From NCBI RefSeq assembly GCF_036429475.1, contig NZ_CP144125.1:930001-994000 (forward strand): a DNA stretch of 64,000 nucleotides, written 5' to 3'. The translations under genes and the position numbers were made by a program. The stretch comes from Halalkalicoccus sp. CGA53 (GTDB lineage: Archaea > Halobacteriota > Halobacteria > Halobacteriales > Halalkalicoccaceae). The notes under the pieces were generated by a model. It worked only from the letters and a program-made list of their open reading frames with translations. It was not told the DNA's origin and ran no database searches. Below are positions 793 through 20,930 of the stretch, piece by piece (the first letter of the stretch is position 1; every line of letters begins with the position of its first letter).

Positions 793-1776
793 TCAGTCGT
801 CGAACTCGTCGTAGAGCAGCACCTGCAGCTCCTCGTTCTCCTTCAGGTCGAAGACCATCGCGAGCAGCATGAACAGCCAGCCGACCGCGAACAGGAGCGC
901 CGCGGTCCCGCGGGAGGTGCCCGACTCCGGGGAGACGACGGATTTCAGACCCGCGAGGAGGCCGCCGCCGGCCGTCGCGGCCCCGACGTAGTAGAAGAAC
1001 GTCAACGGGTGGAAGTCCCGGACGAGGTACTTCACGCGGAGCCGCCAGAGGAAGTCACGAAGCAGGAGCACGGAGACCTTCGGGATGAACGTCTCGTACT
1101 TGATGTGGCTCGTCTCGTCCTTGTAGACCGCCCGTCGGGGGACATCCGCGACCGTGAGCCCGCGCGCGTTCAGCCGGACGAGCAGGTCGTTCGCGAAGCC
1201 GAAGTCCTCGTAGAGTTCGTCCAGGTCGAGTCGGTCGAGCGCCTCGTAGGAGATGGCCGTCGAGCCGTTCTGGGGGTCCATCACCTTCCAGTAGCCGCTC
1301 GCGATCTTCGTCAGCAGCGAGAGGGTGAAGTTCCCGATCTGTCGAAAGAGCGGCATGTCGCGGCGCTGTCGCCCGAGCAGGCGGTTGCCCTTCGAGTAGT
1401 CCGCCCGGCCCTCGGCGACCGGCGCGATCATCCGTTCGACGATGTCGGGCTCGGCCTGGCCGTCGCCCGCGATCACCGCTGTCACCTCCATCCCGTCCTC
1501 GTACGCGTGCTGGTATCCCGTCTTGATCGCGCCACCCACGCCGCGGTTCTTCACGTGTTTGATCGGGACGATCTCCGCGGTCTCGTCGCCCTCCTCTCGG
1601 CGTTCGTTCACCCGCGCCGCGTGTGCTTCGATCTCGGCCCAGGTGTCGTCGGTCGAGCCGTCGTCGATGACGTACGCGCGGTCGATACACGCTGGGAGGG
1701 TGTCGATCACCGCTCCGATGTGGGGCTCTTCGTTGTACGCCGGCACGACTGCGGCGATCGTCTTCCCGTTGAACAT
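793..1776 (-). CDS. Family 2 glycosyltransferase with two C-terminal membrane helices
   Basis: Product of 327 residues. The N-terminal 230 residues form a GT-A domain: VVPAYNEE at the nucleotide-binding start, IDDGSTDDT, and AGDGQAEPD around the metal-binding Asp. Two hydrophobic segments (about 256-275 and 290-312) end the protein, an arrangement seen in dolichyl-phosphate hexose synthase-like enzymes. It probably transfers a sugar from a nucleotide donor to a lipid or glycan carrier at the cytoplasmic face. The ATG at 1776 was chosen because the open frame continues far upstream only as non-protein-like sequence that overlaps the divergent deacetylase gene. Acceptor and sugar cannot be told. 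Confidence 0.85.
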   Translation of the reverse strand: MFNGKTIAAVVPAYNEEPHIGAVIDTLPACIDRAYVIDDGSTDDTWAEIEAHAARVNERREEGDETAEIVPIKHVKNRGVGGAIKTGYQHAYEDGMEVTAVIAGDGQAEPDIVERMIAPVAEGRADYSKGNRLLGRQRRDMPLFRQIGNFTLSLLTKIASGYWKVMDPQNGSTAISYEALDRLDLDELYEDFGFANDLLVRLNARGLTVADVPRRAVYKDETSHIKYETFIPKVSVLLLRDFLWRLRVKYLVRDFHPLTFFYYVGAATAGGGLLAGLKSVVSPESGTSRGTAALLFAVGWLFMLLAMVFDLKENEELQVLLYDEFDD

Positions 1777-2007
1777 AGTTGTACTCGAGTAGGCGTCACT
1801 CGCCACCTTCAGGGCTTTGTTATGGAGGGGATAGTTCGGCCGGACGGCCGACTCGTCGGCCGAGCGAGTCGAACGTCCGGGACGACGAGGCGGGCACCCG
1901 GGCGGATTACTTTCGAGATAATAAAATAGCCCTCTCCCCGAGTAAGGATCAACGACGCCGCGCACGCGAGCGTGTGAAACTGAAACGGCGACGACGATTG
2001 GTCCACC

Positions 2008-2802
2008 ATGACGACGCCACCACGCGACGAGGCCACGGGGTACGTCTCCCCGGTCGCGTACACCTACGACTGGTACGAACGTTTCTTCGAGCGGCTGCTC
2101 GAGGCGGGGTACACGCCGGCGAGCTACGACGAACCGCTCGGCGACGGCGATCTCGTCGTGAGACACGACGTCGACCTCTCGCCCGCGAAGGCGCTCGACG
2201 TCGGCCGGATCGAGGCCGACCTCGGTATCGAGTCGACCTTCTTCTTCCTCCTCACGAACCCGCTGTACAATCCGTTTCACCGCCCGAACCGGCTGGTGAT
2301 CCGAGAACTCCTCGAGATGGGCCACGACGTCGGCGTCCACTTCAGCACCCACCAGTACTGGGGTGAGGACCCCGGCGACGGGGCGATCGAGGGCCGCGTC
2401 GCGGCCGAACGCGAGGTCTTCACCACCGCGTTCACCGAGCCCTCCCCGGCTGTTTCGTTTCACCGCCCGCCCGAGTGGATCCTCTCGCGCTCGTTCGACT
2501 CGTTCGTGAGCACCTACGAGCGGCGATTCTTCACCGACGTGCAGTACGCCGGTGACTCCAGCCAGCGCTGGCGTGACGCCCCGCCGGAGGCAGACGGCGG
2601 GCCGCTCCAGGTCCTGACCCACCCGGGCCTCTGGGGTGCGGAGGACGCGACGTTCGCCCAGCGCGTCGACGAGGCCACCGAGTACCAGTTCGACCGCGTA
2701 GCGCGATTCGTCGAAGACGAGTTCATCCACGACCGGAACACCATCGAGCAGTACGACCACCGAGGGGCCCCCTCGGCGAGTACGGAGAGCCAGAATGGCT
2801 AG
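2008..2802 (+). CDS. NodB-like polysaccharide deacetylase (cytoplasmic type)
   Basis: Product of 264 residues without a signal peptide. RHDVD (about residue 50) and VHFSTH (about 107) supply the Asp and His-x3-His metal ligands of the NodB fold, and SFHRPPEW (about 150) resembles its later conserved block. The closest general match is the haloarchaeal deacetylase-like family in glycan clusters. It lies divergently from the GT2 gene and its stop overlaps the next gene by 8 bases, so the two are probably co-translated. It likely removes an acetyl group from a glycan precursor; activity is inferred. Confidence 0.75.
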   Translation: MTTPPRDEATGYVSPVAYTYDWYERFFERLLEAGYTPASYDEPLGDGDLVVRHDVDLSPAKALDVGRIEADLGIESTFFFLLTNPLYNPFHRPNRLVIRELLEMGHDVGVHFSTHQYWGEDPGDGAIEGRVAAEREVFTTAFTEPSPAVSFHRPPEWILSRSFDSFVSTYERRFFTDVQYAGDSSQRWRDAPPEADGGPLQVLTHPGLWGAEDATFAQRVDEATEYQFDRVARFVEDEFIHDRNTIEQYDHRGAPSASTESQNG

Positions 2803-4825
2803 CGTTCGAGGCGGCGTCTACGGCTGGCTCGACCGCCAGCGATTCGACGTCCTCGGCGCGATCGTCGGCCTCGTCATCGCCGTCGGGATGCTCCCGATCA
2901 GGCTCGTCGTCACGAACATCTACGTCGTCGGGATCCCCGTCGCGATCGGCATCGCCTCCGGACTCTACCTGCTCTCGGTCCGGAACGAGGACACCGAGTC
3001 CTACCCGACGCTCCCGCTCTGGGCGGGCCGCGCGCTCCCGAGCGTCGTCCTCCTGGGGATGGCGCTGCTCGTCGCGATCGGGTTCCTCCAGAACGGCCGG
3101 TCGGTAATCTTCTACTCGCTCGCCATCCTCGTCGGGGTCGCGCTGTTCGCACAGATACTCTTCGTCGACGACCGCGACTACGCCCCGTTGCTCGTCCTCG
3201 CGCAGGTCCTCGCGCTCGCGTTCGTCATCCGGATCGTCGCGCTCCGGACGATGCCCGGCTACGTCGGGATCGACATCTGGTCGCACATTCCGACCTACTC
3301 GGCGTCGATCCTCGAGGCCGGCTCGCTCGCGCCGATCGCGGACAACAAGTACTACGCCTCGCCGCTGTTTCACCTGCTGATCGTCGGCACATCGCTGCTC
3401 GCCGACCTCTCGGTCCGGAGCGCCGCGCACGTCTCGATCGGGCTGGCGATGGTGCTCGCGATCCCGTTCGTCTACCTCGCAGCCCGGCTGTTCGTCGCCC
3501 CGCGGTGGGCGCTCTTCGGCGCGGCGGTCTACGCGGTGAGCGGCTACGCCGTCGAGTGGGGGATCCACCTCATCCCCACCACCCTGGGACTGGTGTTCTT
3601 CCTCGCGATCCTCTACCTGCTCTGTCGCCTGCTCTACGTCGACACCGGGCTGCACACGTTCACGCTGTTGCTCGTGTTGAGCATCGCGACGATCCTCACC
3701 CACCAGATCTCCTCGTTCATCGTGCTCGTCATGACCGGCGCGGGGCTGCTCGCACACATCGCGCTCCAGTTCGACCTCCTCGCGCCGAGACAGAACGTGA
3801 GCCAGGTCCGCTCGAACGCCCGGGACTCGGCGAACCTGACGGGGCTGCTCGCGTTCGACCTCGGCTTCCTCACGTTCATGTGGTCGCTCACGCCGCACTA
3901 CGGCTCGACGTTCCTCGAGATCATGTTCACCTTCTTCTACGGCTCGATCGTCGAGGCCGAGGGGATCTTCGACCCGGCGGGCGACCGCGAGATCGACCCC
4001 GACGCTCCGCCGCTCGAGACGACGTTCGTTCAGGACCTCGTCGTCTACCTCGACGCGCTCGCCTTCCTCGTGCCGTTCCTGCTCACCGTCGTCGGCTGTC
4101 TGTTCATCCTCAGACGGCGGAACGTCTCGCACGCGACGTTCATGTGCGCCTCGGCGGTCGTGCTCATGTGCGTCTTCGTCTTCGCGTTCCCGATCGCCGG
4201 GGTGCGGACGTTCGTCCCCTCGCGGTGGTACGCGTTCATGATCGCGCCGATGGCGGTACTGGGCGCGATCGGCATCGCACACCTCTCGCGGACCGTCCGT
4301 CCGGCCGGGGTGTTCGCGATCCTGCTCGTACTGACGCTCGTCCTCCCCGGACTAGCGTTCGCCGGCTCGAACGGCACGATCGACCAGCCGGCGTTCGAGG
4401 ACACCCAGACCCGATACAGCTACACCGCGAGCGAGCTCGCGGCGGTCGAGACCGGCGGCGAGATCATCACGATCAACGAGACCGCGGGCGAACGGATCTA
4501 CACGGATCACCCGTACAACACGGTCTTCTCGCGGCTCGGCGCCGCCGGAGCGGAGGCAGCCCAGCAGGGCGAGACGACCATGGCCTACGACGTGATCGTC
4601 CACCGCGACTACCTCGGGGACGGCGCGGCGTTCACGCAGGACGAGTGGGGCAGGGCCGTCACCGACGACCTCTCCCGCGACCAGCTCTGCGGGACGGATC
4701 GCCACTCCGCCTACGACAACGGGGAGGTGACGATGTGCGTCGCGACGTGGGACACCGAGGCCGCGGCCGAGGAACTCGAACTCGAGGACGAGGAGGAGGG
4801 CCCCATCGACGACGGCGAGCCGTAG
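2795..4825 (+). CDS. Large multi-pass membrane protein, GT-C glycosyltransferase-like
   Basis: Product of 676 residues with about 12-13 hydrophobic helices through residue 530, then a soluble C-terminal tail of about 145 residues ending in a very acidic stretch. After the fourth or fifth helix there is an extracytoplasmic loop with GIDIWSH, reminiscent of the first acidic loop motif of GT-C enzymes that use lipid-linked sugars. No family signature was recognised with certainty, so the role (glycan transfer or polymerisation at the outer face) is an inference from topology and neighbours. The start overlaps the preceding deacetylase by 8 bases and has a GGAG 6 bases upstream. Confidence 0.65.
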   Translation: MASVRGGVYGWLDRQRFDVLGAIVGLVIAVGMLPIRLVVTNIYVVGIPVAIGIASGLYLLSVRNEDTESYPTLPLWAGRALPSVVLLGMALLVAIGFLQNGRSVIFYSLAILVGVALFAQILFVDDRDYAPLLVLAQVLALAFVIRIVALRTMPGYVGIDIWSHIPTYSASILEAGSLAPIADNKYYASPLFHLLIVGTSLLADLSVRSAAHVSIGLAMVLAIPFVYLAARLFVAPRWALFGAAVYAVSGYAVEWGIHLIPTTLGLVFFLAILYLLCRLLYVDTGLHTFTLLLVLSIATILTHQISSFIVLVMTGAGLLAHIALQFDLLAPRQNVSQVRSNARDSANLTGLLAFDLGFLTFMWSLTPHYGSTFLEIMFTFFYGSIVEAEGIFDPAGDREIDPDAPPLETTFVQDLVVYLDALAFLVPFLLTVVGCLFILRRRNVSHATFMCASAVVLMCVFVFAFPIAGVRTFVPSRWYAFMIAPMAVLGAIGIAHLSRTVRPAGVFAILLVLTLVLPGLAFAGSNGTIDQPAFEDTQTRYSYTASELAAVETGGEIITINETAGERIYTDHPYNTVFSRLGAAGAEAAQQGETTMAYDVIVHRDYLGDGAAFTQDEWGRAVTDDLSRDQLCGTDRHSAYDNGEVTMCVATWDTEAAAEELELEDEEEGPIDDGEP

Positions 4826-4937: not shown

Positions 4938-5927
4938 CTACTCCGCGAGCTCTTCGATCCGGGAGGGCCGGCCCGTCGCGAGGCGGTCGATCTCCCTGGC
5001 GACCTCGATCGCCCGGAGCCCGTCCTCGCCCGTGACGATCGGTTCGCCTCCGGTCACGACCGCCTCGACGAACGATGATATCTCGCTCTTGAGCGGCTCC
5101 TGACGGTCGATCAGCACCTGCTCGACGACGTTCTCGTGGCGATAGTCGAAGACGGTCCGCTGCTGTCTGATGTACTCCGGTAGCGAACCGCGCGTGATCT
5201 CGATCGACTGGCCGATGTAGTCGACGTGGATCCGACAGCTCTCGGCGGAGATGGTGAGTTCGCGGATCTTCTTCTGTGTCACTCGGCTCGCGGTGAGCTG
5301 CCCGATCGTCCCGGCCTCGCTCCGGCAGATCGCCGTCGCGTAGTCGCCGTCCTCGCGGCCCAGCGCCTCGATGCTCGCGAGGTCGTCGTCTCCGAGGATC
5401 GCGAGCAGGACGTCGATGTCGTGGATCATCAGGTCCATCACGACCGAGTCGTCGATGTCGCGGTCGAGCGGCGGCCCCATCCGTCGTGCCTCGATCGCGA
5501 GCACGTCGAGGTCGGGGATGAACTCCATCAGCGTGTCGACCGCGGGGTTGAACCGCTCGATGTGGCCGACCTGGAGGACCACCCCTCGGTCCTCGGCGAA
5601 CTCGATCAGCTTACGACCGGTCGCCAGGTCGTCGACGAACGGTTTCTCGATCAGCACGTGGACGCCCGCGTCGATACACTCGCGGGCGACGTCGTAGTGG
5701 TACTGCGTCGGGACGGCGATCGAGACGACCTCGACGCGCTCGAGGAGGTCGCTCATCGTGTACGCCTCGGTCTCGAACGCCTCCGCGACCGCGCCCGCGC
5801 GCTCCATGTCGGCGTCGGCGACGCCGACCAGCTCGGTGTTCGAGAGCTCTTGGTAGACCCGCGCGTGGTTGTGGCCCATGCTCCCGACGCCGATGACCCC
5901 CGCCCTCGTCGTCTCCTGGTTAGACAC
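4938..5927 (-). CDS. Gfo/Idh/MocA family sugar-nucleotide oxidoreductase
   Basis: Product of 329 residues. GVIGVGSMG near the N-terminus is the NAD(P)-binding Rossmann glycine motif and EKPF (about residue 95) is the conserved family signature with the catalytic Lys. It is a cytoplasmic dehydrogenase. Its GTG start (minus strand GTGTCTAA) overlaps the stop of the upstream aminotransferase by 8 bases, so the two are coupled. A dehydrogenase-aminotransferase pair like this fits formation of a 3-amino sugar nucleotide, as with WlbA and WlbE in UDP-GlcNAc-derived pathways; the exact substrate is inferred. Confidence 0.85.
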   Translation of the reverse strand: MSNQETTRAGVIGVGSMGHNHARVYQELSNTELVGVADADMERAGAVAEAFETEAYTMSDLLERVEVVSIAVPTQYHYDVARECIDAGVHVLIEKPFVDDLATGRKLIEFAEDRGVVLQVGHIERFNPAVDTLMEFIPDLDVLAIEARRMGPPLDRDIDDSVVMDLMIHDIDVLLAILGDDDLASIEALGREDGDYATAICRSEAGTIGQLTASRVTQKKIRELTISAESCRIHVDYIGQSIEITRGSLPEYIRQQRTVFDYRHENVVEQVLIDRQEPLKSEISSFVEAVVTGGEPIVTGEDGLRAIEVAREIDRLATGRPSRIEELAE

Positions 5928-7008
5928 GGCTCACCTCACGATCGGCGACGGCACCGATTACGGTGTCGATCACCTCCTCGGTGAGGTTCGGGTGGACGGG
6001 TAGCGAGAGCACCTCGCTCGCGGCCCGCTCGGCGACCGGCGCGTGCGCGTCGTAGCCGTCGTACGCCTCGTACTGGTGGATACAGGTCGGGTAGTAGATC
6101 CCGTGGCCGACCCCTCGATCATCGAGCCGCTCGATCAGCGTTTCTCTGTCCTCCGTCCGTACCGTGTACTGGTGGTAGACGTGCCGGTAGCCCTCCGGCT
6201 CGACCGGTGTCACGACCGACTCGCCGAGCCCGTCGGTGAGCCGTGCCGCGTTCTCTCGGCGTCGCTCGTTGAACGCGGGGAGGCGCTCCAGCTGGATGCG
6301 CCCGATCGTCGCTGCCATGTCCGTCAGCCGGAAGTTGTGGCCGACGGAGACGTGCGCGTAGCCCGCCCCCGGCTCCCGACCGTGGTTGACGAACTGGCGG
6401 AGCCGTGTCGCGACCTCCTCGTCGTCGGTCGTGACCATCCCGCCCTCGCCGGTTGTCATGTTCTTCGTCGGGTAGAACGAGAAACAGCCGGCGTCGCCGA
6501 TCGCGCCGACGCGCTCGCCGCCGATCGCCGCGCCGTGGGCCTGTGCCGCGTCCTCGATCAGGGCCGCGTCGTACTCCTCTGCGAGTTCGACGAAGCGGTC
6601 CATCGCCGCCGGCAGGCCGTAGAGGTGGACCGGCATGATCGCGTCGACGCTGCCGCACTCCCCGATCAGCTCCTCCGTCGCGTCGGGGTCGAGAGTGTAC
6701 GTCTCGGGGTCGATATCCGCGAAGACCGGCTCCGCACCCGTGAGCCGGATCGTGTTCGCCGTCGCGACGAACGAGAAGGGGGTCGTGACGACCGTGTCGC
6801 CGGCACCGATTCCGCTCGCGACGAGCGCCGCGTGCAGTGCGGTCGTCCCGTTGGTCGTCGCGACGGCGTACTCGGCGTCACAGTAGTCGGCGAACTCGCC
6901 CTCGAACGCCTCGACCTCCGGGCCGCCGGCGATCTGCCCGGATTCGATCACCTCGATCACCCGTTCGCGCTCCTCGGCGCCGAGTTCGGGGTCGGCGATC
7001 GGGATCAC
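5920..7008 (-). CDS. DegT/DnrJ/EryC1/StrS-type sugar aminotransferase
   Basis: Product of 362 residues. It is a PLP enzyme that would aminate a keto-sugar nucleotide: TTNGTTALHAAL near the start, EDAAQAHGA, and SFYPTKNMTTGEGG containing the PLP Lys. The frame is open upstream to 7230, but that part is Arg/Ser-rich and unlike a protein, whereas a GTG at 7008 is preceded by GGAGG with a 5-base spacer and directly starts the conserved IPIADPELG block, so the GTG is taken as start. The enzyme is coupled to the Gfo/Idh dehydrogenase downstream. Confidence 0.88.
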   Translation of the reverse strand: MIPIADPELGAEERERVIEVIESGQIAGGPEVEAFEGEFADYCDAEYAVATTNGTTALHAALVASGIGAGDTVVTTPFSFVATANTIRLTGAEPVFADIDPETYTLDPDATEELIGECGSVDAIMPVHLYGLPAAMDRFVELAEEYDAALIEDAAQAHGAAIGGERVGAIGDAGCFSFYPTKNMTTGEGGMVTTDDEEVATRLRQFVNHGREPGAGYAHVSVGHNFRLTDMAATIGRIQLERLPAFNERRRENAARLTDGLGESVVTPVEPEGYRHVYHQYTVRTEDRETLIERLDDRGVGHGIYYPTCIHQYEAYDGYDAHAPVAERAASEVLSLPVHPNLTEEVIDTVIGAVADREVSRV

Positions 7009-7365
7009 GTCGCCCTCCGATCCGTGGCTGGAGCGCCGTCTGCGGTACCGGCCGTGGTACCGCGGTGACGGGAGGCGTCGGCTGTCGTCGTCTGCCCCGC
7101 TCCGGTCGGTCGATCCGAATCGACAGGGCGGCGTCTTTCGGGGTGCATCGGTGGTCTGAGAGTGGGCACGACTGCTCCTTGTCTCTCCCTGGTGTACCGG
7201 TAGCTTGGTTATACGGGTTCTAACGTCCATCGATCCGGCACGGTTTCGGTCCCACGCGACGCGCGTGCGTGGACTCTCCGCCCCCGCTCTCGGTGGCAGT
7301 TACGCTCCCTCTAGGAGGGGCAACTGTCGCGAGGCTTTTGCCGTTCGATCCGGTAGGGGGGCCCA

Positions 7366-8346
7366 ATGAACCCGCTTCAGTGGACGGCCGACCTCCTCGC
7401 CGTCCTCGCCGCGACCGCCGTCGCGGCCGTCCTGATCGCCCTCGTCGAGGTCTCGGTGACGCCGATACGGGTGCTCGCCGCCCTCCCCCTGGTGCTGTTC
7501 GTCACCGGCTACGTCTTCGTCGCGGCGCTCTACCCCGGGGCACGGCCCGAACGGGCGGACGTCGGCGAGTCGGGCGCGCTCACCGGCCTCGAACGCCTCA
7601 CGCTCTCGGTCGCGGTCAGCGTCGCGGTCGTCCCGACGCTGCTGTTCGTGCTCAACTTCACCCCGTACGGCATCTCACTGGCCCCGCTCGTGGCCGCCAT
7701 CGCCGCATGGACGCTCCTCTTCTCGGTCGTGGCGTTCGTCCGGCGCCGCTCTGTCGACCCCGCCGCGCGCTTTTCGGTCTCCCCGCGCGTCCCCTACGTC
7801 GCCGCCTACTTCACGACGACCGACGGTCGTGTCGGCGAGGCCGCACCGTTCGAGGCCCGGGACGGGCACCAGGTGCTGCTCAACGCGCTGCTCGTCGTGA
7901 GTGCCGTCGTCTTCGTCGGCGTCGTCGCCGGCGCACTCGCGCTCGGCGGCCCGGCGGACGACCCGTTCACCGAGTACTACCTCGTCGCGGAGGACGACGA
8001 GGGGAACACGACGATCGAGGCGCTCCCCGACGAGATGACCGCCGGCGAGAGCGAGACGCTGTTCGTCGGGATCGAGAACCAGGAGGGAGAGTCGCTCACC
8101 TACGAGACGGTGGTGGTCTTCGAGCGACTGGACGACGACGGCGAGGTGACCGAACGGACCGAATTGGACCGGTTCGAGACGAGCGTCGACGACGGCGAGA
8201 CCGAACTCGTCGAGTACCAGGTCACCGCGCCGGAGTCGGGCGACGACGTGCGGATCTCGTTCCTACTCTACCGCTACACGGTCCAGCCCGACCCGAGCGC
8301 GGAGAACGCCCACCGGGCGGTCTGGATCGAGCCGACGGTGAATTAA
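7366..8346 (+). CDS. DUF1616 family membrane protein
   Basis: Product of 326 residues. Five hydrophobic helices lie within the first 190 residues. The C-terminal 130 residues are outside and contain the family block EYYLVAEDDEGN and LFVGIENQEGES, typical of DUF1616. The family is common beside archaeal surface-polysaccharide clusters but its role is unknown. The stop codon shares bases with the stop of the convergent gene (TTAA at 8343-8346). Confidence 0.8.
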   Translation: MNPLQWTADLLAVLAATAVAAVLIALVEVSVTPIRVLAALPLVLFVTGYVFVAALYPGARPERADVGESGALTGLERLTLSVAVSVAVVPTLLFVLNFTPYGISLAPLVAAIAAWTLLFSVVAFVRRRSVDPAARFSVSPRVPYVAAYFTTTDGRVGEAAPFEARDGHQVLLNALLVVSAVVFVGVVAGALALGGPADDPFTEYYLVAEDDEGNTTIEALPDEMTAGESETLFVGIENQEGESLTYETVVVFERLDDDGEVTERTELDRFETSVDDGETELVEYQVTAPESGDDVRISFLLYRYTVQPDPSAENAHRAVWIEPTVN

Positions 8347-9870: not shown

Positions 9871-10359
9871 ATGCGCAAACGAACGATCCCACTCAGCAGA
9901 CGGCGCTTCATCGAGGCCGCAGGCGCGGCAACCCTGGTCGGTCTCGCGGGCTGTGCAGACGACGATGAAGATCCGGAGGATCCGGAAGAGGATCCCATCG
10001 ACGACGAGGACGATCCTGAGGACGACCCGGAAGACGATCCTGAGGACGACCCGGAAGACGATCCTGAGGACGACGATCCGATGGACGACGAGGACGATCC
10101 TGAGGACGACGATCCGATGGACGACGAGGACGATCCTGAGGACGACGATCCGATGGACGACGAGGACGATCCTGAGGACGACGATCCGATGGACGACGAG
10201 GACGATCCTGAGGACGACGATCCGATGGACGACGAGGACGATCCTGAGGACGACGATCCGATGGACGATGAGGACGATCCTGAGGACGAAGACGATCCGA
10301 TGGACGACGAGGACGACGGCCTCACCGACGACGAGGAAGACGAAGACGACGACCTCTAA
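9871..10359 (+). CDS. Tat lipoprotein, mature part almost entirely Asp/Glu/Pro repeats
   Basis: Product of 162 residues. The N-terminus has RRRFIE, a short hydrophobic stretch and a lipobox (LAGC), so it should be exported by Tat and lipid-anchored on the outside. Nearly every residue after the Cys is Asp, Glu or Pro with a few Met; the core repeat is DDPEDDDPMDDE. There is no recognisable domain, so it is probably an extended polyanionic chain. It could bind cations, act as a spacer, or carry attached glycan; none of these can be shown here. The gene is real by its signal and consistent frame, but the repeats make its length prone to slippage. Confidence 0.75.
   Translation: MRKRTIPLSRRRFIEAAGAATLVGLAGCADDDEDPEDPEEDPIDDEDDPEDDPEDDPEDDPEDDPEDDDPMDDEDDPEDDDPMDDEDDPEDDDPMDDEDDPEDDDPMDDEDDPEDDDPMDDEDDPEDDDPMDDEDDPEDEDDPMDDEDDGLTDDEEDEDDDL
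10057..10311 (+). repeat. 36-bp tandem repeat array inside the acidic lipoprotein gene
   Basis: Six 36-bp units run head to tail at 10057-10272, five of them identical and the last with one changed base, followed by a 39-bp variant at 10273-10311. They are preceded by a 24-bp repeat (GACGATCCTGAG then GACGACCCGGAA) at 10009-10056. All units are multiples of three, so changes in copy number keep the frame. Confidence 0.9.
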
Positions 10360-10546
10360 CCGGGCCAGTCCGCAGCCGAACTCGATTTTTCGCGATCGCT
10401 GACCGCCCGTGAGTCCCCGCCTTCTACTTTTTTGAACCGTTGTTCTCTATTAGCTTTTACACGCTAATATAATACGGTATAACGGTGGTAAATTGATCGC
10501 TTAAAGTCCGAAGATTTATGCCGCATCCCGGATGTGTCCTAACCGG

Positions 10547-11857
10547 ATGTCGCCAGAGGAGCGGAAAAACAGCGGTAGAGCATCGGCTACGAGACGGTGG
10601 ACACTACGGGCTACGGGCGCGGCGCTCGCGTCATCTGCGGTCGCTGCACCCGCAGCGGCGAGCAGTGTTTGTCCGTGGATCATCGACGACAGTGACGACA
10701 GCGACGAGGACTCGTCGTCCGGCGGTGGTGGCGGCGGGAACGGCTCGTCGAGCGAGGACACGTCCGGAAACGACGGGGACGCCGAGGCGGAAGAGGAGGC
10801 GCCCTCGGAGCCGGAGTCGAGCGGCGGGGATGTGGCCTTCGACGCCGAGGAGATCGACGTCACCGCACACGGCGTCGACAACTCCGGCAACTCGTCGGTG
10901 ACGGGCGCGCTCCAGCGTCTCGCACAGAACAACCGGATCCTCTACTTCCCGGCCGGGGAGTACTACATGGACAGCGCGGTCCGGTTCGTCGGCTTCCAGA
11001 ACTTCGGGCTGATCGCCGCCGACGGCGCTCGGTTCGTCCCGGCCCCGGCCTCGAGCTACAACGCGCCGGGCCAGTCGGTGAACATGTTCACGCTCGGGGT
11101 TCCGAACTCCCCCGGACGGAACCTGCACGTCGAGAACCTCACGTTCGACTTCTCGGCGAACAACACGGGCGTACGCGGTCTTCACGCCTCGATCTCCGAC
11201 GGCCTGGTCGTCCGCGACGTCGAGGTCACCGGGACCCACGACACCGGGACGTTCGGTCCACTCAACACGGACATCGTCAGCTCGGGTGGCAGCGGCGTGA
11301 TCGAGAACCTGAGCCTGCCCGACGGCGCGGTCCACAACGACCACACGTCGAGCCGGCTCCACACGACGGGCATGGGCCCGTCGGGACTCAACGTCACGCG
11401 TCACCACACCGGCACGCTGACCGTGCGCAACGCCGAGATCAACGGCTTCCCGGACAACGGCCTCTACGCGGCGACGCGCAGCGGGACCGTCCACGTCAGG
11501 GGCGGTACGTTCCGGAACAACAACGTCGCGAACGTCCGGCTGATGGGCCAGGGGAGCTCCGTCGAGGGCGCGAGCATCACCGTGGACCGGAGCCCGCCGG
11601 GCTTCGACGCACAGCGTGCGATCCGTCTCAACCGTGGTCGGAACCTCGAGGTCCGCGATGTCGACGTTTCCGTCTCGACGTTCGTCCACGACGTGATCCG
11701 CGTCATGCCGGGCACCGACTCGGCGACGATCGACGACGTCTCCATGAACATCCCGGGCGCGAACTGGGGCGTGACGGTCACGAGCGGTGCGAGCAACGTG
11801 AACGTCGGTGACCTCGACGTCAGCGGTGCGAACCGCGGCGACGAGTATCGGTACTAG
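10547..11857 (+). CDS. Secreted right-handed beta-helix (pectate-lyase fold) protein
   Basis: Product of 436 residues. A Tat-like signal (RRWTLRATG then an Ala-rich stretch) is followed by a Ser/Gly/Asp-rich linker (about 40-95). From about residue 100 there is a repeated pattern of short beta-strands with turns such as NLHVENLTF, GLVVRDVEV, LTVRNAEI and LEVRDVDV, the hallmark of parallel beta-helix proteins acting on or binding polysaccharides. ITVTAHG-type start (here IDVTAHGVDNSG) is typical of the pectate-lyase-3 family. ATG 10547 lies about 30 bases after a TATA-like GATTTATG; an in-frame ATG at 10532 is the alternative. Enzyme activity is not evident. Confidence 0.75.
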   Translation: MSPEERKNSGRASATRRWTLRATGAALASSAVAAPAAASSVCPWIIDDSDDSDEDSSSGGGGGGNGSSSEDTSGNDGDAEAEEEAPSEPESSGGDVAFDAEEIDVTAHGVDNSGNSSVTGALQRLAQNNRILYFPAGEYYMDSAVRFVGFQNFGLIAADGARFVPAPASSYNAPGQSVNMFTLGVPNSPGRNLHVENLTFDFSANNTGVRGLHASISDGLVVRDVEVTGTHDTGTFGPLNTDIVSSGGSGVIENLSLPDGAVHNDHTSSRLHTTGMGPSGLNVTRHHTGTLTVRNAEINGFPDNGLYAATRSGTVHVRGGTFRNNNVANVRLMGQGSSVEGASITVDRSPPGFDAQRAIRLNRGRNLEVRDVDVSVSTFVHDVIRVMPGTDSATIDDVSMNIPGANWGVTVTSGASNVNVGDLDVSGANRGDEYRY

Positions 11858-11892: not shown

Positions 11893-13176
11893 CTACGGCG
11901 AGACGGCGGTTCTGAGCGATGCGACCTCGTCGTAGAGGGTGAGATACGAGTCGATCACCTCGTCCGGGGAGAACCCGCGGACGTGGTCGGGGATCGAGCG
12001 CTGGTGAGCGACGTACTCGGTCATCAGTGTCTCGAACGCGTCGGCGAGCCCCACCGGATCGCCGGGGTCGTACACCTCGCCGGCCGGGCCGACGATCTCG
12101 CGCATGCTCCCCACGTCCGAGGTGAGGATCGGCGTGTGGCTCGCGAGCGCCTCGAGCATCACCCGGCCGAACGGCTCGTCGAGGATCCCCGAGTAGACGA
12201 AGACGTCGGCCGCGTCGTAGACGTCAGGGAGCCGTGCGTGGTCGACGTAGCCGAGCCACTCGATCGCGTCGGCCACCTCCAGGTCGTCGGCGAGCGATCG
12301 GAGCGACTCCTCGCGTCCACCCTTCCCCGCGACCCGGAGTTCGACGTCGTGACCGCGCGCCCTGATCTCCGCCAGCGCCTCGATCACGGTGTCGGCGTCC
12401 TTGATATCGGAGAGCGCTCCGACGGTGAGGAGGCTGATCGGCGCCTCGCGGTAGACCGGGTTCGTGTACTCACAGACCGGCGAGAAGAAGCGCTCGTCGT
12501 AGAAGTGGGGGATCACCGTGATCCGGTCCTCGGGAAACCCGAGGTTCCCGTAGTCGCGGACGAGATGGGGGCTGAGCGCGTGGTAGGCGTCGACCCCCGA
12601 AGCGGCCGCCATCGACCGCTCGACGAACGGGATCGAGCCCATCGAGACGAAGCCCGACCGGAGCTCCGAGTCGACGCCCTGCCACCGACCGGCGGCGGTC
12701 GCCGCGATACATCGGAGACACTTCGCGCGTCTCGGCCCCGAACACTTCTCCTCGCCCCGATAGAGCATGTCCGCCTTCGGACAGACCGGCAGGTAGGAGT
12801 TGAGCGTCGAGAGCGTCGGCACGTCCAGGTCGGCGAGCACCGAGATGAACGCCGAGGAGTACGAGTGGACCATGTCGTGACGTTCGAGGTTCTCGGTCTC
12901 GGTTCGGAGCGCGTCCACCTTCTCCGAGAGCGGGTTCGGCAGGTACGAGAGGCCGTCGTTGATCACGTACTCGACGCGGTCCTCGGCCGGGAGCGGTCGC
13001 TCTGCCTCCCACTGCGTGGTCACGTAGACGGTCAGGTCGTGGTGCCACGAGAGGTGTTCGATCAGCAGTGTCGAGGTGTGGACCGCACCCGTCCCGTTCG
13101 CCCCCGGACACTCGACGGGGACGAACCCCACGTCGAGACGTCCGCTCGTCTCTCCCCCTGTGTTCGATCCCTTCAT
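11893..13176 (-). CDS. Family 4 glycosyltransferase with a Cys-rich insertion
   Basis: Product of 427 residues. The C-terminal half has the GT4 (GT-B fold) donor-site pattern: LLTVGALSDIKD, VAGKGGREE, and the EPFGRVMLEALA block with the conserved Glu residues. The N-terminal half contains PVCPKADML and later KCLRC, four Cys in about 28 residues (about 127-155), a possible metal site that is uncommon in haloarchaeal cytoplasmic proteins. It probably adds a hexose to a glycan intermediate on the cytoplasmic side. An AT-rich GATAGTAAAAC on the minus strand near 13210 may be its TATA box. Confidence 0.85.
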   Translation of the reverse strand: MKGSNTGGETSGRLDVGFVPVECPGANGTGAVHTSTLLIEHLSWHHDLTVYVTTQWEAERPLPAEDRVEYVINDGLSYLPNPLSEKVDALRTETENLERHDMVHSYSSAFISVLADLDVPTLSTLNSYLPVCPKADMLYRGEEKCSGPRRAKCLRCIAATAAGRWQGVDSELRSGFVSMGSIPFVERSMAAASGVDAYHALSPHLVRDYGNLGFPEDRITVIPHFYDERFFSPVCEYTNPVYREAPISLLTVGALSDIKDADTVIEALAEIRARGHDVELRVAGKGGREESLRSLADDLEVADAIEWLGYVDHARLPDVYDAADVFVYSGILDEPFGRVMLEALASHTPILTSDVGSMREIVGPAGEVYDPGDPVGLADAFETLMTEYVAHQRSIPDHVRGFSPDEVIDSYLTLYDEVASLRTAVSP

Positions 13177-15340: not shown

Positions 15341-15373
15341 GGGCGTTGCGTCTACGCCGTATTATGCTTTGCT

Positions 15374-15380
15374 TATATCC
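15374..15380 (-). promoter_or_regulatory. TATA box of the HxlR-receiver operon
   Basis: The minus strand reads GGATATAAGC around here, about 35-40 bases ahead of GTG 15340. It would place the transcript start near 15350. Confidence 0.45.
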
Positions 15381-15456
15381 GGATAAACAGTTCAAAAAAG
15401 AGCGGTAAGGTGCCGTTTATCGCCGCGACGCGCGTCGTGGCGACGTGCCCCCGCCG

Positions 15457-16740
15457 TCAGCGGCCGAACAGCGACCGGAGGAACGCCAGGATCCGGTCGA
15501 GGAGCCCGAGTGACTCCCCACCCTCGTCCACGTCCCCGGTGTCGTCCCCGTCGTCGTCGTCGGCCCCGGCGGCACCGACGTCGTCGTCACCGTTCGCGTC
15601 GCCGTCGTCGCCGTCGGGCGTTCCGTCGTCCCCGTCGTCTTCCATGCTCGCACGGATCTGCTCGTCCTGGACCTCCCAGACGCCGAGACGGTGCATCGCC
15701 TCCTGCATCGTCACGATCTTGATGTTCCGTTCGAGCGCCGCCTCGATCGCGAACTGGATCCGTTCCTCGGGCAACGTGCTGAAGTGGCTGTGTCCGGCGA
15801 GGATGCCGAAGTCGGGCTCTCCGGCGACGCTGTCGAGGAAGTCGAGGAGTTCGTCGTCCTCCATGTAATCGGTCTCGAAATACGCGCGGTGCAGCGAGAG
15901 CGGGTCCGGCTCGTGTTCGGGATTGAGGCCACCGCGGCCGGGTCGGGCGTTCGGGTTCGAGTCGTAGAACTGGGGGACGAAGTTCTGGACGCCCTCGGTC
16001 CGGTCGTAGGTGTGGACGTAGCCGTTGACCACGCCGCCCTGGTCCTCGAGCCAGCCCTCGAGCATCTCCTGGGACTCCGAGAGGATCTGTTCGGTGAACT
16101 CGTCGGTGTACCTGACGACGGCGTCGGAGCTGATGTCCTCTTCGAGACCCTCCTCGAGGATCAGATAGCGGGTTTCGTCCGCCTCCTCCTCGTCCTCGAG
16201 ATCGTCGTAGCCGTCGTCTTCCTCGTCCTCCCCTCCGCCGTCCCGCCGTCCGGCGACGGTCGCCTCGACCTCGTTGTCCCCGTCGATGAAGACGATCGGA
16301 TCGCCCTCGAACCGGCCCGCGAGGTTCGAACGGACCGGGATCTCGGTCTCACCCGCCTCGACGCTCTCGAGGACCGGTACCTCTCCGAGGTCACGGTGGA
16401 TGAGCGTGTGGGACATGAACTCCCAGCCGTCCTGGTGCATCGCCTGCATGTGACCGGGGAGCAGCCAGTCGCTCGTCCCCCCCTCCATCAGGCCGGGGAG
16501 GGCGGCGACACAGCCAGGAACGTCGTACTCGCGGTGGACGCGGTAGGTCTTCGAGTAGTCCTCCGCGGGGCTGTCGTCGTAGACGAACACCAGCAGCCCG
16601 TCGTAGTCCTCGTCATCGTCGTCGTCGGCCATCGCCGTCGCCGGGAGGAGGGCCGAGGCACCGACCGCGGCCGCACCGGCGCCGGTCGCCTTCAGGAAGG
16701 TACGGCGGGTCGAGTTCGCACCTCTTCGCTGAGCGTACAT
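15457..16740 (-). CDS. Tat-exported NodB-like deacetylase with inserted domain
   Basis: Product of 427 residues. The N-terminus has RRTFLK and a long Ala/Gly signal, then an Asp-rich spacer. VFVYDDSPAEDY supplies the metal-site Asp and SHTLIH the His-x3-His motif of NodB. An inserted block of about 100 residues, including an Asp/Glu-rich loop, lies between the HTLIH motif and the continuing fold. The end of the fold is around GHSHFSTLPEERIQF and IVTMQEAMHRLGVW. The C-terminal 80 residues are an Asp/Gly-rich linker ending in a short amphipathic or membrane-binding segment (LLDRILAFLRSLFGR). It is paralogous to the gene at 1-660. A surface glycan is the likely substrate. Confidence 0.82.
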   Translation of the reverse strand: MYAQRRGANSTRRTFLKATGAGAAAVGASALLPATAMADDDDDEDYDGLLVFVYDDSPAEDYSKTYRVHREYDVPGCVAALPGLMEGGTSDWLLPGHMQAMHQDGWEFMSHTLIHRDLGEVPVLESVEAGETEIPVRSNLAGRFEGDPIVFIDGDNEVEATVAGRRDGGGEDEEDDGYDDLEDEEEADETRYLILEEGLEEDISSDAVVRYTDEFTEQILSESQEMLEGWLEDQGGVVNGYVHTYDRTEGVQNFVPQFYDSNPNARPGRGGLNPEHEPDPLSLHRAYFETDYMEDDELLDFLDSVAGEPDFGILAGHSHFSTLPEERIQFAIEAALERNIKIVTMQEAMHRLGVWEVQDEQIRASMEDDGDDGTPDGDDGDANGDDDVGAAGADDDDGDDTGDVDEGGESLGLLDRILAFLRSLFGR

Positions 16741-16770
16741 TGTCGAGCAGTGATTCTCTCCGTTGGCTCT

Positions 16771-16780
16771 TACTTATACG
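16771..16780 (-). promoter_or_regulatory. TATA box of the 15457-16740 deacetylase
   Basis: The minus strand reads CGTATAAGTA, 31-40 bases ahead of ATG 16740. It resembles the box before the paralogue at 660. Confidence 0.5.
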
Positions 16781-16909
16781 CTCGCTAACCTGACCTTTCG
16801 GCGCCCTCCGGTGGGGCTCGTTTCGAGGCCTGTCACCCCATCACACGCCGGATTTGGCTCCCCGGTTACCGGGACGTAACCGTTCGCCTAACTGTTCGCT
16901 CTCCTCGAA

Positions 16910-16919
16910 CTTATACGAT
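16910..16919 (+). promoter_or_regulatory. TATA box of the beta-helix/hydrolase fusion
   Basis: CTTATACGAT lies about 31-40 bases ahead of GTG 16950, consistent with a nearly leaderless message starting at that GTG rather than at upstream codons. Confidence 0.5.
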
Positions 16920-16949
16920 AGAAAGAATTTTCCGATTTTGTGGGATATC

Positions 16950-18995
16950 GTGAACGACACTAACCTCCCGAACTCGAACGAACCGAACGCCGACTACTCC
17001 AGGCGAACCTTCATGAAAGCCGCCGGCGCGACCGGCATCGTCGGATCGATGGGGACCGCACAAGCCTCAAGCGACGACGACCAACTACGGACGATGACCG
17101 TCTCCCAGGACAGCTTCACCGTCTCTAGTGACGAACTCCGCCTCGGGGAGCGACTCGTCGTCGGCCGACCCGGCTTTCGGACCATCTCCGAGGCGTGGGA
17201 CGCCGCCGACGACGGCGACGTGATCGTCGTCCACTCGAGCTACGACGCACAGCGGGCGGGCGAGGAGTTCCCGATCGTCCTCGACCGGGGCGAGAAGGAG
17301 GTCGCGCTCGTCGGGGGCGACCCCTCCGGCTCCGTCATCGACGCGGGGAACGCGAACGCCGACGTGATCCACTGTATCGGCGTCGGCTCCTCTGACTTCC
17401 GGAACTCTCCCTACCTGAAGAACCTCCGCGTCCGCGGCGGTCAGGTGGGTATCAAGATCTACGGCGCCCCGAACAGCTACTTCGAGAACGTCAAGGCGTT
17501 TCTCAACGAGAGCCACGGCTGGCACGTCTACAACCACGGCGACCATGGTGGCAGCCACGGCTGCGTCTTCCACAAGTGCGAAGCGTGGAGCTGTGGCGGC
17601 AATGGCTTCCGGATGGACCGGGAGTCGTTCCCACACGGCTCGATGTTCATCAGGTGTAACGCGACGTGGAACGGCTACAACGGCACCCGCGAGGGCGTCA
17701 CGCTCGCCGGCTACTCGACGGTCTGGCACGGCGGGACCGTCCAGCAGAACTCGGGCGACGGCTTCCGGGTCACGCGCGACGGCGGCATCGTCATCCGTGA
17801 CGCGTACATCGAGTCCAACGGGATCGAGTACAGTGGCCACCCGACGCAGATCCGGATGGTCGGCACGCTCGGCGGCCTCGTCGAGAGCTGTTACTTCAAC
17901 GGCTCGATGATGGGCGGCAACCGCCACATGGACCCTGCCGGCCACGACAACGTCTACCGGGGCGTCACGCTCCACGACGCGCGGACGACGACCGTACGGG
18001 ACTGCGCCCACCGCAACCACAGCGAGGGGTTCATCGCCGTCCAAGGCGATTCGACCGACTGCGACATCCACGAGGGAAGCCACCACAACGTCGGGGCCGG
18101 CGCGAGCGGCCCTGACCCGTTCCTCGTCCACGACCACGGCATCCGAACGCGGTCGAACGGCGTGATCCGGCCGACGGACCTCTCCGCTATACAGGGAACG
18201 TACGACGGCGATATGGGCATCGACCAGTCCAACGGTATCGCCGTCTGGATGGGGGACGAGTGGCATTTTAAGGAGGCCGTCGGGGGAGGCTCCTCCGACG
18301 GCAGCTACCGGATCCTCGAGGGTACCGCTGACGAGACGACCGTCTACGTCAAGGAGTCCGGCACGGACGGACCGACGACGCTCGTCGTCGGCGGGATCCA
18401 CGGCGACGAGACGAGCGGCTGGATGGCCGCGGACCTCATCGCAGACCAGTGGACCGTCGACTCCGGGACGCTCGTCGTCCTCCCGCGCGCGAACACCCAG
18501 GCGATCGACGCCGACCGTCGCGGGATGGGATACGACCTGAACCGTCGGTTCTTCGTCGGACAGGACCACCTCCGAAACGACATCGCGCGTGCGATCTGGG
18601 AGGAGGTCGTCGAGCGACACGACCCGGACTGGCTGATCGATCTCCACAGCTCCCGCGGCTACTACCAGGGGAGCCCACGCGGGGTCGGCCAGGCCATCTT
18701 CCCCACCGCCTCGGGGCCGGCGCGCTCGTACGCCCGCCGGATCACGAACCGGGTCAACGCGAAGTTCGGCTTCTCCGGTGACGACCGTTACCTCGTCGGG
18801 AACACGCTCGACGGGTCGAACCCGATGCTCGTCCACAAGGCGACCGCCGACGCCGGAATCGCGGGCTACATCATGGAGACCGCCTGGCCCGCCGCCGGTT
18901 CGTCGACGAAACGCGAGTGGCAGCTGGCGAGCGCCGCGAACGCGCTCAGTCTCGCCGGACACGACCTCCCCGGAACGGTGCGAGGGCACCTCTGA
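16950..18995 (+). CDS. Tat-exported beta-helix protein fused to an aspartoacylase/M14-type zinc hydrolase
   Basis: Product of 681 residues. A Tat signal (RRTFMKAAG) starts within 25 residues of the GTG. Residues of about 75-420 form a right-handed beta-helix (repeated strands such as KNLRVRGGQVGIKIYG, FRVTRDGGIVIRD). The last 230 residues carry the succinylglutamate desuccinylase/aspartoacylase pattern: GGIHGDE with H484 and E487, DLNRRF at 529-534, DLHSS with H566, and MET AW-type Glu at 643. These give a full zinc site and catalytic Glu, so the hydrolase should be active. The fusion suggests glycan recognition by the helix and removal of an acyl or amide-linked group outside the cell. Its stop overlaps the next small gene by one base. 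Confidence 0.8.
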   Translation: MNDTNLPNSNEPNADYSRRTFMKAAGATGIVGSMGTAQASSDDDQLRTMTVSQDSFTVSSDELRLGERLVVGRPGFRTISEAWDAADDGDVIVVHSSYDAQRAGEEFPIVLDRGEKEVALVGGDPSGSVIDAGNANADVIHCIGVGSSDFRNSPYLKNLRVRGGQVGIKIYGAPNSYFENVKAFLNESHGWHVYNHGDHGGSHGCVFHKCEAWSCGGNGFRMDRESFPHGSMFIRCNATWNGYNGTREGVTLAGYSTVWHGGTVQQNSGDGFRVTRDGGIVIRDAYIESNGIEYSGHPTQIRMVGTLGGLVESCYFNGSMMGGNRHMDPAGHDNVYRGVTLHDARTTTVRDCAHRNHSEGFIAVQGDSTDCDIHEGSHHNVGAGASGPDPFLVHDHGIRTRSNGVIRPTDLSAIQGTYDGDMGIDQSNGIAVWMGDEWHFKEAVGGGSSDGSYRILEGTADETTVYVKESGTDGPTTLVVGGIHGDETSGWMAADLIADQWTVDSGTLVVLPRANTQAIDADRRGMGYDLNRRFFVGQDHLRNDIARAIWEEVVERHDPDWLIDLHSSRGYYQGSPRGVGQAIFPTASGPARSYARRITNRVNAKFGFSGDDRYLVGNTLDGSNPMLVHKATADAGIAGYIMETAWPAAGSSTKREWQLASAANALSLAGHDLPGTVRGHL

Positions 18996-19147
18996 TGGCG
19001 AACCGGACGCTCTCGCCGCAGTCGGTCGACGAGGTCACGGTCGCGGAGTGCCAGCTCTGTGAGGCGACCGCCCCGGTCGAGGACCTCTACGAGATGGTCC
19101 GCTGGCTCTCACGACACAGACACCGAGAACACGTCTTCTCGCGGTAG
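18995..19147 (+). CDS. Small Cys2-His-rich putative zinc microprotein
   Basis: Product of 50 residues, coupled to the fusion gene through TGATG. It has one CQLC pair (residues 20 and 23) followed near the end by HRHREH, a possible Cys2-His2 zinc site of the kind seen in haloarchaeal small zinc-finger proteins. It is basic at the C-terminus, against the usual acidity. Function is unknown. Confidence 0.6.
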   Translation: MANRTLSPQSVDEVTVAECQLCEATAPVEDLYEMVRWLSRHRHREHVFSR

Positions 19148-19301
19148 AATTCGACTACCTTTTCCACTGGCTAAACACGTTAACTGAGGCATAATAAAAC
19201 GGCCAGGCTGGCTACGCGGGTAGTATGAGACACCTGATCGACGCACGGGTGCGGGCGAACCCGGCCCGGCGCCCGTGCAGGGTGGGAGGGACCCCTTCAC
19301 G

Positions 19302-20930
19302 ATGAGCGACGACCGGATGGACGTCCTCCTGATCGGCATCGACGCCGCCTGCGAGAGCGTCTTCGACCGACTGAACGAGACCGAGAGCATCCCGAACCTC
19401 CGTGAGCTAATGGATCGGGGCGTCTCCGGCCCGCTCACCTCGCAGATCCCGCCGTGGACCCCGAGCGCCTGGCCCTCGATGTACACCGGCGTGAACCCCG
19501 GCAAACACGGCGTCTACGGCTTCGTCGACTACCAGGGCTACGACTGGGAGGTCGTCACCGGGAACCACGTCCGGGAACACGCCCTCTGGCGGCTGCTCTC
19601 GGACCGGGGGCTCTCCAGTGTGATCGTCAACGTCCCGGTGACGTTCCCGCCCGACGAGATCGATGGCGCAGTCGTCCCCGGGTTCATCGGCCCGGAGAAC
19701 CCGCGCTGCCACCCGGAGGGGGTCCTCGACGAGCTTCGCGAGGCGATCGGCGAGTACCGCGTCTACCCCAACTACACCCGCGGTGACGACAGCATCTCCG
19801 ACGACGAGAAGATGGACGAGTACTGCGAGCTCGCCCGGATGCGCGGGGAGGCGTTTCGCTACCTCGCCGACCGGTTCTCCCCCGACCTCGGCTTCGTCCA
19901 GTTCCAGAAGACCGACACCGTCTTCCACGAGTTCGACGGCGACCCGGAGAAGGTCAGGCGGATCTACGAGGCGACCGACGACCAGATCGGGGAGATTTTA
20001 GATCGGTGTGACCCGAAGACCGTCTTCGTCGCCAGCGACCACGGGATAGGCCCCTACGAGAACTACGAGTTCCGCGTCAACGAGTTCCTTCGCGAGGAGG
20101 GCTACGTCGAGGCGACGACCGGCGGCAAGGGGATGCCGTCGTGGAATCCGATCCGGAACCAGCTCCAGGAGGGGAGCGACGAGACGACCTGGGAGCCGAG
20201 CCGCGTCGAGCGGCTGGCCGCGAAGGCCGCCGCGGTCGGGCTCACCCCCGGAAAGCTCGTTCGGGTGCTCGAACACGTCGGGCTCGACTCCGTCGCCCGC
20301 CGATACGCCCCGGCGGACATCACGCGGACGACAAGCGAGCAGGTCGACTTCCCGAACTCGCGGGCGTACATGCGCGCGCGAACCGAACTCGGAGTGCGGA
20401 TCAACCTCGAGGGCCGCGAACCGGAAGGCATCGTCCCCGAGGAGGAGTACGAGGAGACGAGAGAGGAGGTGATCCGGGCGCTGAGCTCGGTCGAGACGCC
20501 CGACGGCGATCCGGTCTTCGGCGAGGTCGTCCCCCGCGAGACCTACTTCCACGGGCCGTACGCCGAGAAGGCAGTCGACGTCGTCACTGTTCCGAACGAC
20601 TTCGAGCAGTTCCTCTCCGCACACCTCCTCGGGGAGTGGTTCGGCCCACCCTCGGAGCCGTGGAATCACAAGATGGACGGGCTGATCGTCGCGAGCGGAG
20701 AGGGTATCGACCCCGAGGCCGACCTCTCGGACGCACACCTCTTCGACGTCGCCCCGACTATCATGTCCGCGTTCGGTATCCCGTACAGCGATCGGATGGA
20801 CGGACGGTCACTCCCCGTCGTGTCGGACGCCGGCTCGACCGAGTATCCGGAGTACGAGGCGGGTGAGGTGGGCGGTCGGCACGACGAGGCGGTAGAGGAA
20901 CGCCTCGCGGACCTCGGCTATCTGGAGTGA
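19302..20930 (+). CDS. Alkaline-phosphatase superfamily phosphodiesterase/sulfatase-like enzyme
   Basis: Product of 542 residues. VLLIGIDAA near the start provides the first metal ligand, PPWTPSAWPSMYTG contains the nucleophile region (Thr/Ser) of type I phosphodiesterase/nucleotide pyrophosphatase proteins, and ASDHGIGPYE carries the Asp-His metal ligands. There is no signal peptide, so it acts in the cytoplasm or at the membrane. Similar genes occur in archaeal glycan clusters, possibly acting on lipid-linked or nucleotide sugars. ATG 19302 is preferred over an in-frame GTG at 19275 because it begins just before the conserved first strand. Confidence 0.8.
   Translation: MSDDRMDVLLIGIDAACESVFDRLNETESIPNLRELMDRGVSGPLTSQIPPWTPSAWPSMYTGVNPGKHGVYGFVDYQGYDWEVVTGNHVREHALWRLLSDRGLSSVIVNVPVTFPPDEIDGAVVPGFIGPENPRCHPEGVLDELREAIGEYRVYPNYTRGDDSISDDEKMDEYCELARMRGEAFRYLADRFSPDLGFVQFQKTDTVFHEFDGDPEKVRRIYEATDDQIGEILDRCDPKTVFVASDHGIGPYENYEFRVNEFLREEGYVEATTGGKGMPSWNPIRNQLQEGSDETTWEPSRVERLAAKAAAVGLTPGKLVRVLEHVGLDSVARRYAPADITRTTSEQVDFPNSRAYMRARTELGVRINLEGREPEGIVPEEEYEETREEVIRALSSVETPDGDPVFGEVVPRETYFHGPYAEKAVDVVTVPNDFEQFLSAHLLGEWFGPPSEPWNHKMDGLIVASGEGIDPEADLSDAHLFDVAPTIMSAFGIPYSDRMDGRSLPVVSDAGSTEYPEYEAGEVGGRHDEAVEERLADLGYLE

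Follow-up and report, generated by a model that had tools for sequence, protein, structure and literature searches.

A predicted exported beta-helix/M14-type metallo-amidohydrolase in a haloarchaeal glycan locus, with a counterpart in the tail module of a provirus of the same genome

Very little is known about how archaeal surface polysaccharides are enzymatically matured or cut, and the same holds for the passage of tailed archaeal viruses through them. In the genome of Halalkalicoccus sp. CGA53, a single reading frame joins a Tat-type signal, a right-handed beta-helix, and a catalytic domain related to aspartoacylase, which raises the question of what such an enzyme would act on outside the cell. 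The initial annotation of the window (the whole analyzed stretch of 64,000 nucleotides, positions 930,001 to 994,000 of contig NZ_CP144125.1) suggested that this protein is a new surface enzyme that removes acyl or amide groups from a glycan or a poly-acidic polymer. In the present analysis, the domain content, conservation, genomic context, and evolutionary rates of the protein are considered, together with its relatives in a provirus of the same genome.

The gene lies at 16950..18995 on the forward strand and encodes 681 amino acids in an open frame that begins with GTG at 16950, ends with a stop at 18995, is also open upstream from a TTG at 16854, and has an orthologue in full synteny in a metagenome-assembled genome (MAG) of the Halococcaceae, L009. 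Each of the three parts named in the initial annotation was matched by a Pfam model. The Tat signal (SRRTFMKAAGATGIVGSMGTAQA, followed by SS; 16995..17069, forward strand) includes the residues SRRTFMKAAG...TAQA and is kept in L009 and in a second Halococcaceae MAG, L010; its match to the TAT_signal model (residues 16-34, E=6e-4) falls just under the cut-off, with 20.0 against 22.7 bits. The beta-helix, a putative glycan-recognition half with approximate boundaries at 17160..18170 (forward strand), matches the Beta_helix model over residues 152-245 (3.3e-9, over cut-off). The stretch 18171..18275 (forward strand) comprises the end of the beta-helix half (PTDLS..G.YDGDMG....AVWMGDEW), which in an alignment is kept in L061 and in most exported beta-helix homologues and is absent from the provirus copies described below, and a linker. 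Homologues consisting of the beta-helix only share 38-40% identity with this half. Among catalytic beta-helix families of curated activity no match was obtained, the hits being the generic Beta_helix model and, below cut-off, NosD. Because a profile of the beta-helix half found no significant meaningful match in the PDB, glycan binding by this half is a property that we infer.

The catalytic domain (18282..18992, forward strand) is of the M14/AstE-AspA-like type, as indicated by matches to AstE_AspA_cat (PF24827; residues 473-568, 2e-11, over cut-off), which cover model positions 1-106 of 192, and by profile matches to PDB entries. Its residues H484, E487, H566, and E643 had been proposed as a full metal and catalytic set, and both the residue numbering and the conservation bear this out. 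The HGDE motif (18399..18410, forward strand), containing the putative metal ligands H484 and E487, is invariant in 48 haloarchaeal homologous domains, as are G485, N531, and H566 (18645..18647, forward strand), the predicted third ligand. The Asn-Arg motif of M14/AspA-type substrate binding (N531-R532, 18540..18545, forward strand) retains its arginine in 44 of the 48 domains, and E643 (18876..18878, forward strand), the probable general base corresponding to Glu222 in Csd4, is present in 47. A profile of 42 domains compared with the PDB matched M14/AspA structures, namely 3cdx (2e-16), Csd4 (4wcm, 3e-14), and DoeB (6twm, 1e-10), in addition to 2qj8 and, weakly, MpaA. An AlphaFold2 model of the catalytic domain, obtained from a shallow alignment of 4 rows that left out the homologues gathered in the genome survey, reached a pLDDT of 60, and its best Foldseek matches were AspA/Csd4 structures with a TM score of only about 0.34; because this structure model is weak, the M14/AspA assignment leans on the sequence profiles. 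The full-length model (pLDDT 38, 3 rows) was set aside for all claims. The two findings that would have spoken against the initial annotation, a loss of the zinc residues and an unrelated fold, did not arise.

The relationship to aspartoacylase stands at the superfamily level and fails at the level of the individual enzyme. With members of the AstE/AspA superfamily (PF24827; 3cdx, 2qj8, 6twm DoeB) the protein shares the HxxE...H metal-ligand motif, the Asn-Arg motif, and the late catalytic Glu, although it differs from them in being apparently exported and joined to a beta-helix. The equivalog models of AspA, AstE, and DoeB gave scores of 23.5, 19.5, and 20.9 bits, all far below their respective cut-offs of 180, 170, and 402.7 bits. 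In AspA, the C-terminal domain restricts access to small substrates; approximately 38 residues follow E643 in the window protein, which leaves no space for such a domain. For these two reasons, "aspartoacylase" is used here as a superfamily label only.

A second comparison concerns Csd4/Pgp1 (M99, PF17033), peptidoglycan D,L-carboxypeptidases that are likewise exported M14-fold enzymes acting on a wall polymer. Approximately 100 residues align, and the partial Peptidase_M99 match (residues 470-573, 4.5e-8) is over the cut-off with 33.3 against 27 bits. Archaea of the class Halobacteria are not known to have peptidoglycan. The first metal ligand of Csd4 is a Gln within a QxxE motif (PMC4220969), whereas the window protein has His (HxxE) and thus departs from the QxxE...H motif of M99; the C-terminal domains of Csd4 are also absent from it. 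A carboxypeptidase that trims surface or secreted proteins, such as S-layer proteins or pilins, rather than glycans, would agree with the PF17033 match, with the peptide substrates of Csd4 and the M14 carboxypeptidases, and with the lack of an access-limiting AspA C-terminal domain. It is less easily reconciled with the glycan-locus synteny presented below, in which the locus holds no candidate for a peptide substrate, or with the fusion of the catalytic domain to beta-helix or H-type lectin-like domains, which are not peptide-binding; we regard it as quite unlikely.

The implication of the initial annotation that export of an AspA-like enzyme is unusual was not borne out. Of 292 genomes sampled from the class, 67 gave a match to the full-length query at E<=1e-10, mostly through its M14 half; they belong to 24 of the 77 genera covered. 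Most of the haloarchaeal M14/AspA-like homologues bear a Tat-type motif. The catalytic domain occurs alone (about 265-310 amino acids) or with PKD, H-type lectin-like, or thioredoxin-like (DsbA-type) domains. Such proteins are already named in RefSeq as "succinylglutamate desuccinylase/aspartoacylase family proteins" or "deacylases"; they contain the same catalytic domain at 35-50% identity, mostly with Tat signals and in some cases within similar glycan loci. The idea that export of the enzyme is itself new was consequently discarded, the trait being widespread across haloarchaea. A literature search found no paper linking haloarchaea with aspartoacylase. The RefSeq-named proteins differ from the window protein in that they stand alone or carry H-lectin, PKD, or thioredoxin-like partners, and none of those sampled carries a beta-helix. 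Surveys with the two fusion proteins (host and provirus) covered 292 and 391 genomes of the class, respectively, and recovered the fusion from no more than three genomes: the window genome, with three copies, and L009 and L010, whose proteins are 78% identical to the window protein; the survey scored the best 3-4 candidates per genome and judged fused frames from fetched loci, so rare cases may escape it. Across the genomes sampled, the rare feature is the beta-helix fusion, not export.

What the exported protein may act on is indicated by its neighbors. A GT2 glycosyltransferase of the AglJ-like type with an uncertain start (793..2760, reverse strand; PF00535, 7e-16; AglJ model 8e-19, below cut-off) recurs beside M14 genes, as do a large membrane protein (2795..4825, forward strand), found near them in L058, L103, L118, and partly L055, and a DUF1616 membrane protein (7366..8346, forward strand; PF07760, 3e-75). 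A Gfo/Idh/MocA dehydrogenase, for which the nearest model is the archaeal UDP-GlcNAc 3-dehydrogenase (4938..5927, reverse strand; NF040723, 1e-71, 242 of 450 bits, below cut-off), overlaps by 8 bases with a DegT-family sugar aminotransferase (5920..7230, reverse strand; PF01041, 6e-119), and dehydrogenase/aminotransferase pairs of this type serve in the synthesis of diamino sugars. A GT4 glycosyltransferase (11893..13176, reverse strand; PF00534, 2e-30) and a phosphodiesterase/phosphotransferase of the alkaline-phosphatase superfamily (19275..20930, forward strand; PF01663, 9e-37), with a homologue in L048, also belong to the locus. Three further proteins with Tat-type signals were counted nearby, where four had been annotated: a Tat-type lipoprotein (RRRF...LAGC, 9871..10359); a pectate-lyase-like protein with a Tat-like signal (10532..11857, forward strand; PF12708, 8e-5, below cut-off), the homologues of which match Pfam Beta_helix and adjoin M14 genes in several genera; and a polysaccharide deacetylase-like protein (15457..16740, reverse strand; PF01522, 9.6e-6, over cut-off), with homologues in the L057, L058, and L059 loci. 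The whole block 9871-27995 is kept in order in L009. The possibility that the window gene lies inside a provirus was rejected, since it is surrounded by regulatory genes and genes of glycan metabolism, and the synteny with this MAG is complete.

As a separate observation, the lipoprotein at 9871-10359 belongs to a set of RR-type lipoproteins, also encoded at L041:6026-6445, L045:5304-6155, and L070:1912-2529, in which the mature part consists almost wholly of Asp/Glu repeats; with 0.59 net negative charges per residue, the window lipoprotein has the highest value of the set.

The partner families of the window recur around M14 genes elsewhere (L048, L057, L058, L063, L064, L065, L103, L112, and L118). 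Partners were counted at E<=1e-15 within fetched loci of 14-16 kb. At least one glycan partner was present in 10 of 20 loci with long or fused M14 genes; among 20 control stretches of the same genomes, a single one had a partner (Fisher p=0.003), as did 1 of 17 loci with short M14 genes (p=0.004). At least two partners were present in 8/20, 1/20, and 1/17 of these loci, respectively (p=0.02). Because the selection of long loci and partner families followed a first look at the data, the p-values are indicative. Half of the long-M14 loci show no window partner family. The short Tat-exported homologues fall mostly outside glycan loci, with 1 of 17 having a partner, which indicates that the M14 domain family has other roles as well.

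The two halves of the fusion are also found apart in similar loci. In L059, a Halorientalis plasmid locus, a protein with a Tat signal resembles the beta-helix half (40% identity) but lacks the enzyme, and is accompanied by a GT2 glycosyltransferase, a beta-helix protein, a deacetylase, and a DUF1616 protein. The closest M14 relatives (49-50%) are those of L058 and L118, where the M14 gene stands without a fused beta-helix, close to genes for beta-helix proteins and for the large membrane protein; L058 additionally has a deacetylase. The thioredoxin-like (DsbA-type) domain occurs in two different fusions in separate genomes, with a beta-helix at L058:4562-6646 and with the M14 domain at L067:5684-7126. 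This shuffling, with separate halves in like loci and exchanged partners, suggests that the beta-helix and the M14 domain act in one process. The earlier proposal of a surface glycan or polymer enzyme is thus upheld as regards a predicted exported metallo-amidohydrolase, a putative glycan-recognition fold, and a glycan locus recognized by synteny across genera; the part that was lost is the rarity of export.

These data also bear on a nutritional role, in which the enzyme would cleave amides in foreign polymers or peptides for food and leave the cell's own coat uninvolved. The M14 family includes digestive carboxypeptidases and the cyanophycin dipeptide hydrolase CphZ, the latter being one of the Foldseek matches, and the many short exported homologues outside glycan loci could be seen in the same light. 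The genes nearest to the window gene, however, are those of assembly (glycosyltransferases, sugar-nucleotide genes, and DUF1616), no transporter or catabolic gene was recognized in the block, and the version encoded in a provirus tail module, described below, suggests a target on the host surface. Such a role is accordingly considered unlikely, although somewhat less so than protein trimming.

The two halves of the window protein have evolved at unequal rates. In comparison with L009, dS is equal in the two halves (0.40 and 0.38), whereas dN differs, at 0.233 for the beta-helix against 0.054 for the enzyme, corresponding to dN/dS values of 0.58 and 0.14; the values against L010 are 0.53 and 0.16, respectively. 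If the beta-helix follows a polymer that changes over time, a constant catalyst with a rapidly evolving recognition arm would be expected; relaxed constraint on the beta-helix would give the same pattern at this evolutionary depth.

A further line of evidence comes from a tailed and apparently complete provirus in the same genome (contig C2, about 2044000-2074000; loci L069 and L040), recognized by genes for a large terminase (9e-16), a portal (1.4e-31), head morphogenesis, a major head protein (8e-20), and a tape measure (1.9e-67). At the end of its tail module, a gene at 2069925-2071784 (L040:9926-11785) encodes a 619-amino-acid paralogue with the same beta-helix and M14 architecture and no Tat signal. 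A location in the tail module combined with the lack of an export signal is what a tail-spike gene would show, in contrast to the window gene, which has a Tat-type signal and non-viral neighbors; judged from these sequence features, the provirus protein is most likely the tail spike of the provirus. A second non-exported copy, 83% identical to the first, is encoded at L041:8650-10560 within a provirus remnant (L041:8650-11632) from which the head genes and most tail genes are gone and in which a few end genes are kept. This copy retains an intact frame, and a comparison of the two provirus copies gives a dN/dS of 0.31. Directly before the putative spike gene, a 363-amino-acid reading frame (L040:8783-9874) with a His/Asp-rich start (HHYHTEKDNPPPHD) has no Pfam or PHROG match, and its product could represent another metal-dependent enzyme of the virion.

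Bacteriophage beta-helix tail spikes and depolymerases likewise combine a beta-helix with an enzyme. Relatives in known viruses are scarce: among 50,697 phage records, none was found for the full-length window protein or the provirus protein, and a search of IMG/VR yielded none for the beta-helix half. One tailed-virus contig in IMG/VR (IMGVR_UViG_3300007038_000001, 48% GC) carries a stand-alone AspA-like gene of 211 amino acids near baseplate genes, the M14 domain of which shows 34% identity, and Foldseek against viral models returned only weak matches, to phage zinc carboxypeptidases. A published example of a haloarchaeal virus whose particle carries a predicted enzyme of glycan modification is HFTV1, the turret protein of which resembles polysaccharide deacetylases (PMC12494034); the provirus protein differs from it in being an M14 enzyme encoded in the tail module.

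The existence of a viral twin raises the possibility that the window gene is a captured provirus tail protein that acquired a Tat signal and serves as a surface decoy or as a weapon against cells or viruses. In the M14 tree, the window protein and its two Halococcaceae orthologues, both provirus copies, the lectin-fused proteins of L013 and L014, and a stand-alone copy from the same genome (L003) form a single clade (99/99), which, along with the architecture that the copies in the provirus and its remnant share with the host protein and the fast evolution of the beta-helix half, would suit such a capture. Against it, a direct pairing of the host and provirus domains as sisters is weak and unsupported (89/26), their beta-helices are only 25% identical (6e-11), the closest relatives of the host beta-helix are exported chromosomal or plasmid proteins (38-40% identity), and transfer from host to virus fits equally well. 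Domestication of a viral spike is therefore thought improbable, more so than either of the other alternatives. The shared design nevertheless suggests that the host and provirus proteins act on the same kind of coat.

The reading that we favor, with a probability of roughly 60%, is that the window protein is an exported amidase or deacylase that trims the cell's own surface polysaccharide, with the beta-helix providing specificity, and that a protein of like design serves the provirus as its tail spike. The protein would be exported folded through the Tat pathway, after which the beta-helix would bind the surface polysaccharide of the cell. In the M14 chemistry described for Csd4, one metal ion is employed, a Glu acts as the general base, and Arg residues bind the scissile carbonyl and the carboxylate (PMC4220969); by analogy, H484, E487, and H566 may coordinate a single metal ion, while E643 would serve as the general base and R532 and R524 would bind anions. 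The enzyme would then cut amide bonds on the polymer, either N-acyl groups of amino or diamino sugars, of a kind that the locus appears able to make, or amino acids amide-linked to sugar acids. In the wall of Halococcus, N-glycyl-glucosaminyl bridges are present, in which an amino acid is amide-linked to a sugar acid (PMC4187196). An amide between an amino acid and a sugar acid would better suit the carboxylate preference of M14 enzymes. M14 homologues also occur in genera such as Haloferax and Natrinema, and a Halococcus-like bridge is put forward here as a candidate only. Cleavage would take place after polymer assembly, as with the adjoining polysaccharide deacetylase, so that the coat is matured or loosened, and during entry the provirus spike would attach to a coat of this kind and open it.

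The interest of these findings lies in the combination of a rare fusion, its place in a conserved glycan locus, and the recurrence of its design in the tail module of a provirus of the same genome. The host protein in the glycan locus and the provirus protein at the end of the tail module offer one candidate each for the maturation of surface polysaccharides and for viral passage through them, as two proteins of one genome. A broader and more tentative proposal, which we hold to be possible rather than probable, is that haloarchaea and their tailed viruses share an unrecognized envelope metallo-amidase, carried on interchangeable beta-helices and cutting amides of surface polymers, with which the host remodels its coat and the virus breaches it. 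Walled haloarchaea such as Halococcus, from which no virus has been isolated so far (PMC13321033), would be an obvious place to seek such an amidase. If the proposal is true, the enzyme would be an archaeal counterpart, with unrelated chemistry, of both wall amidases and the virion-associated lysins of phages.
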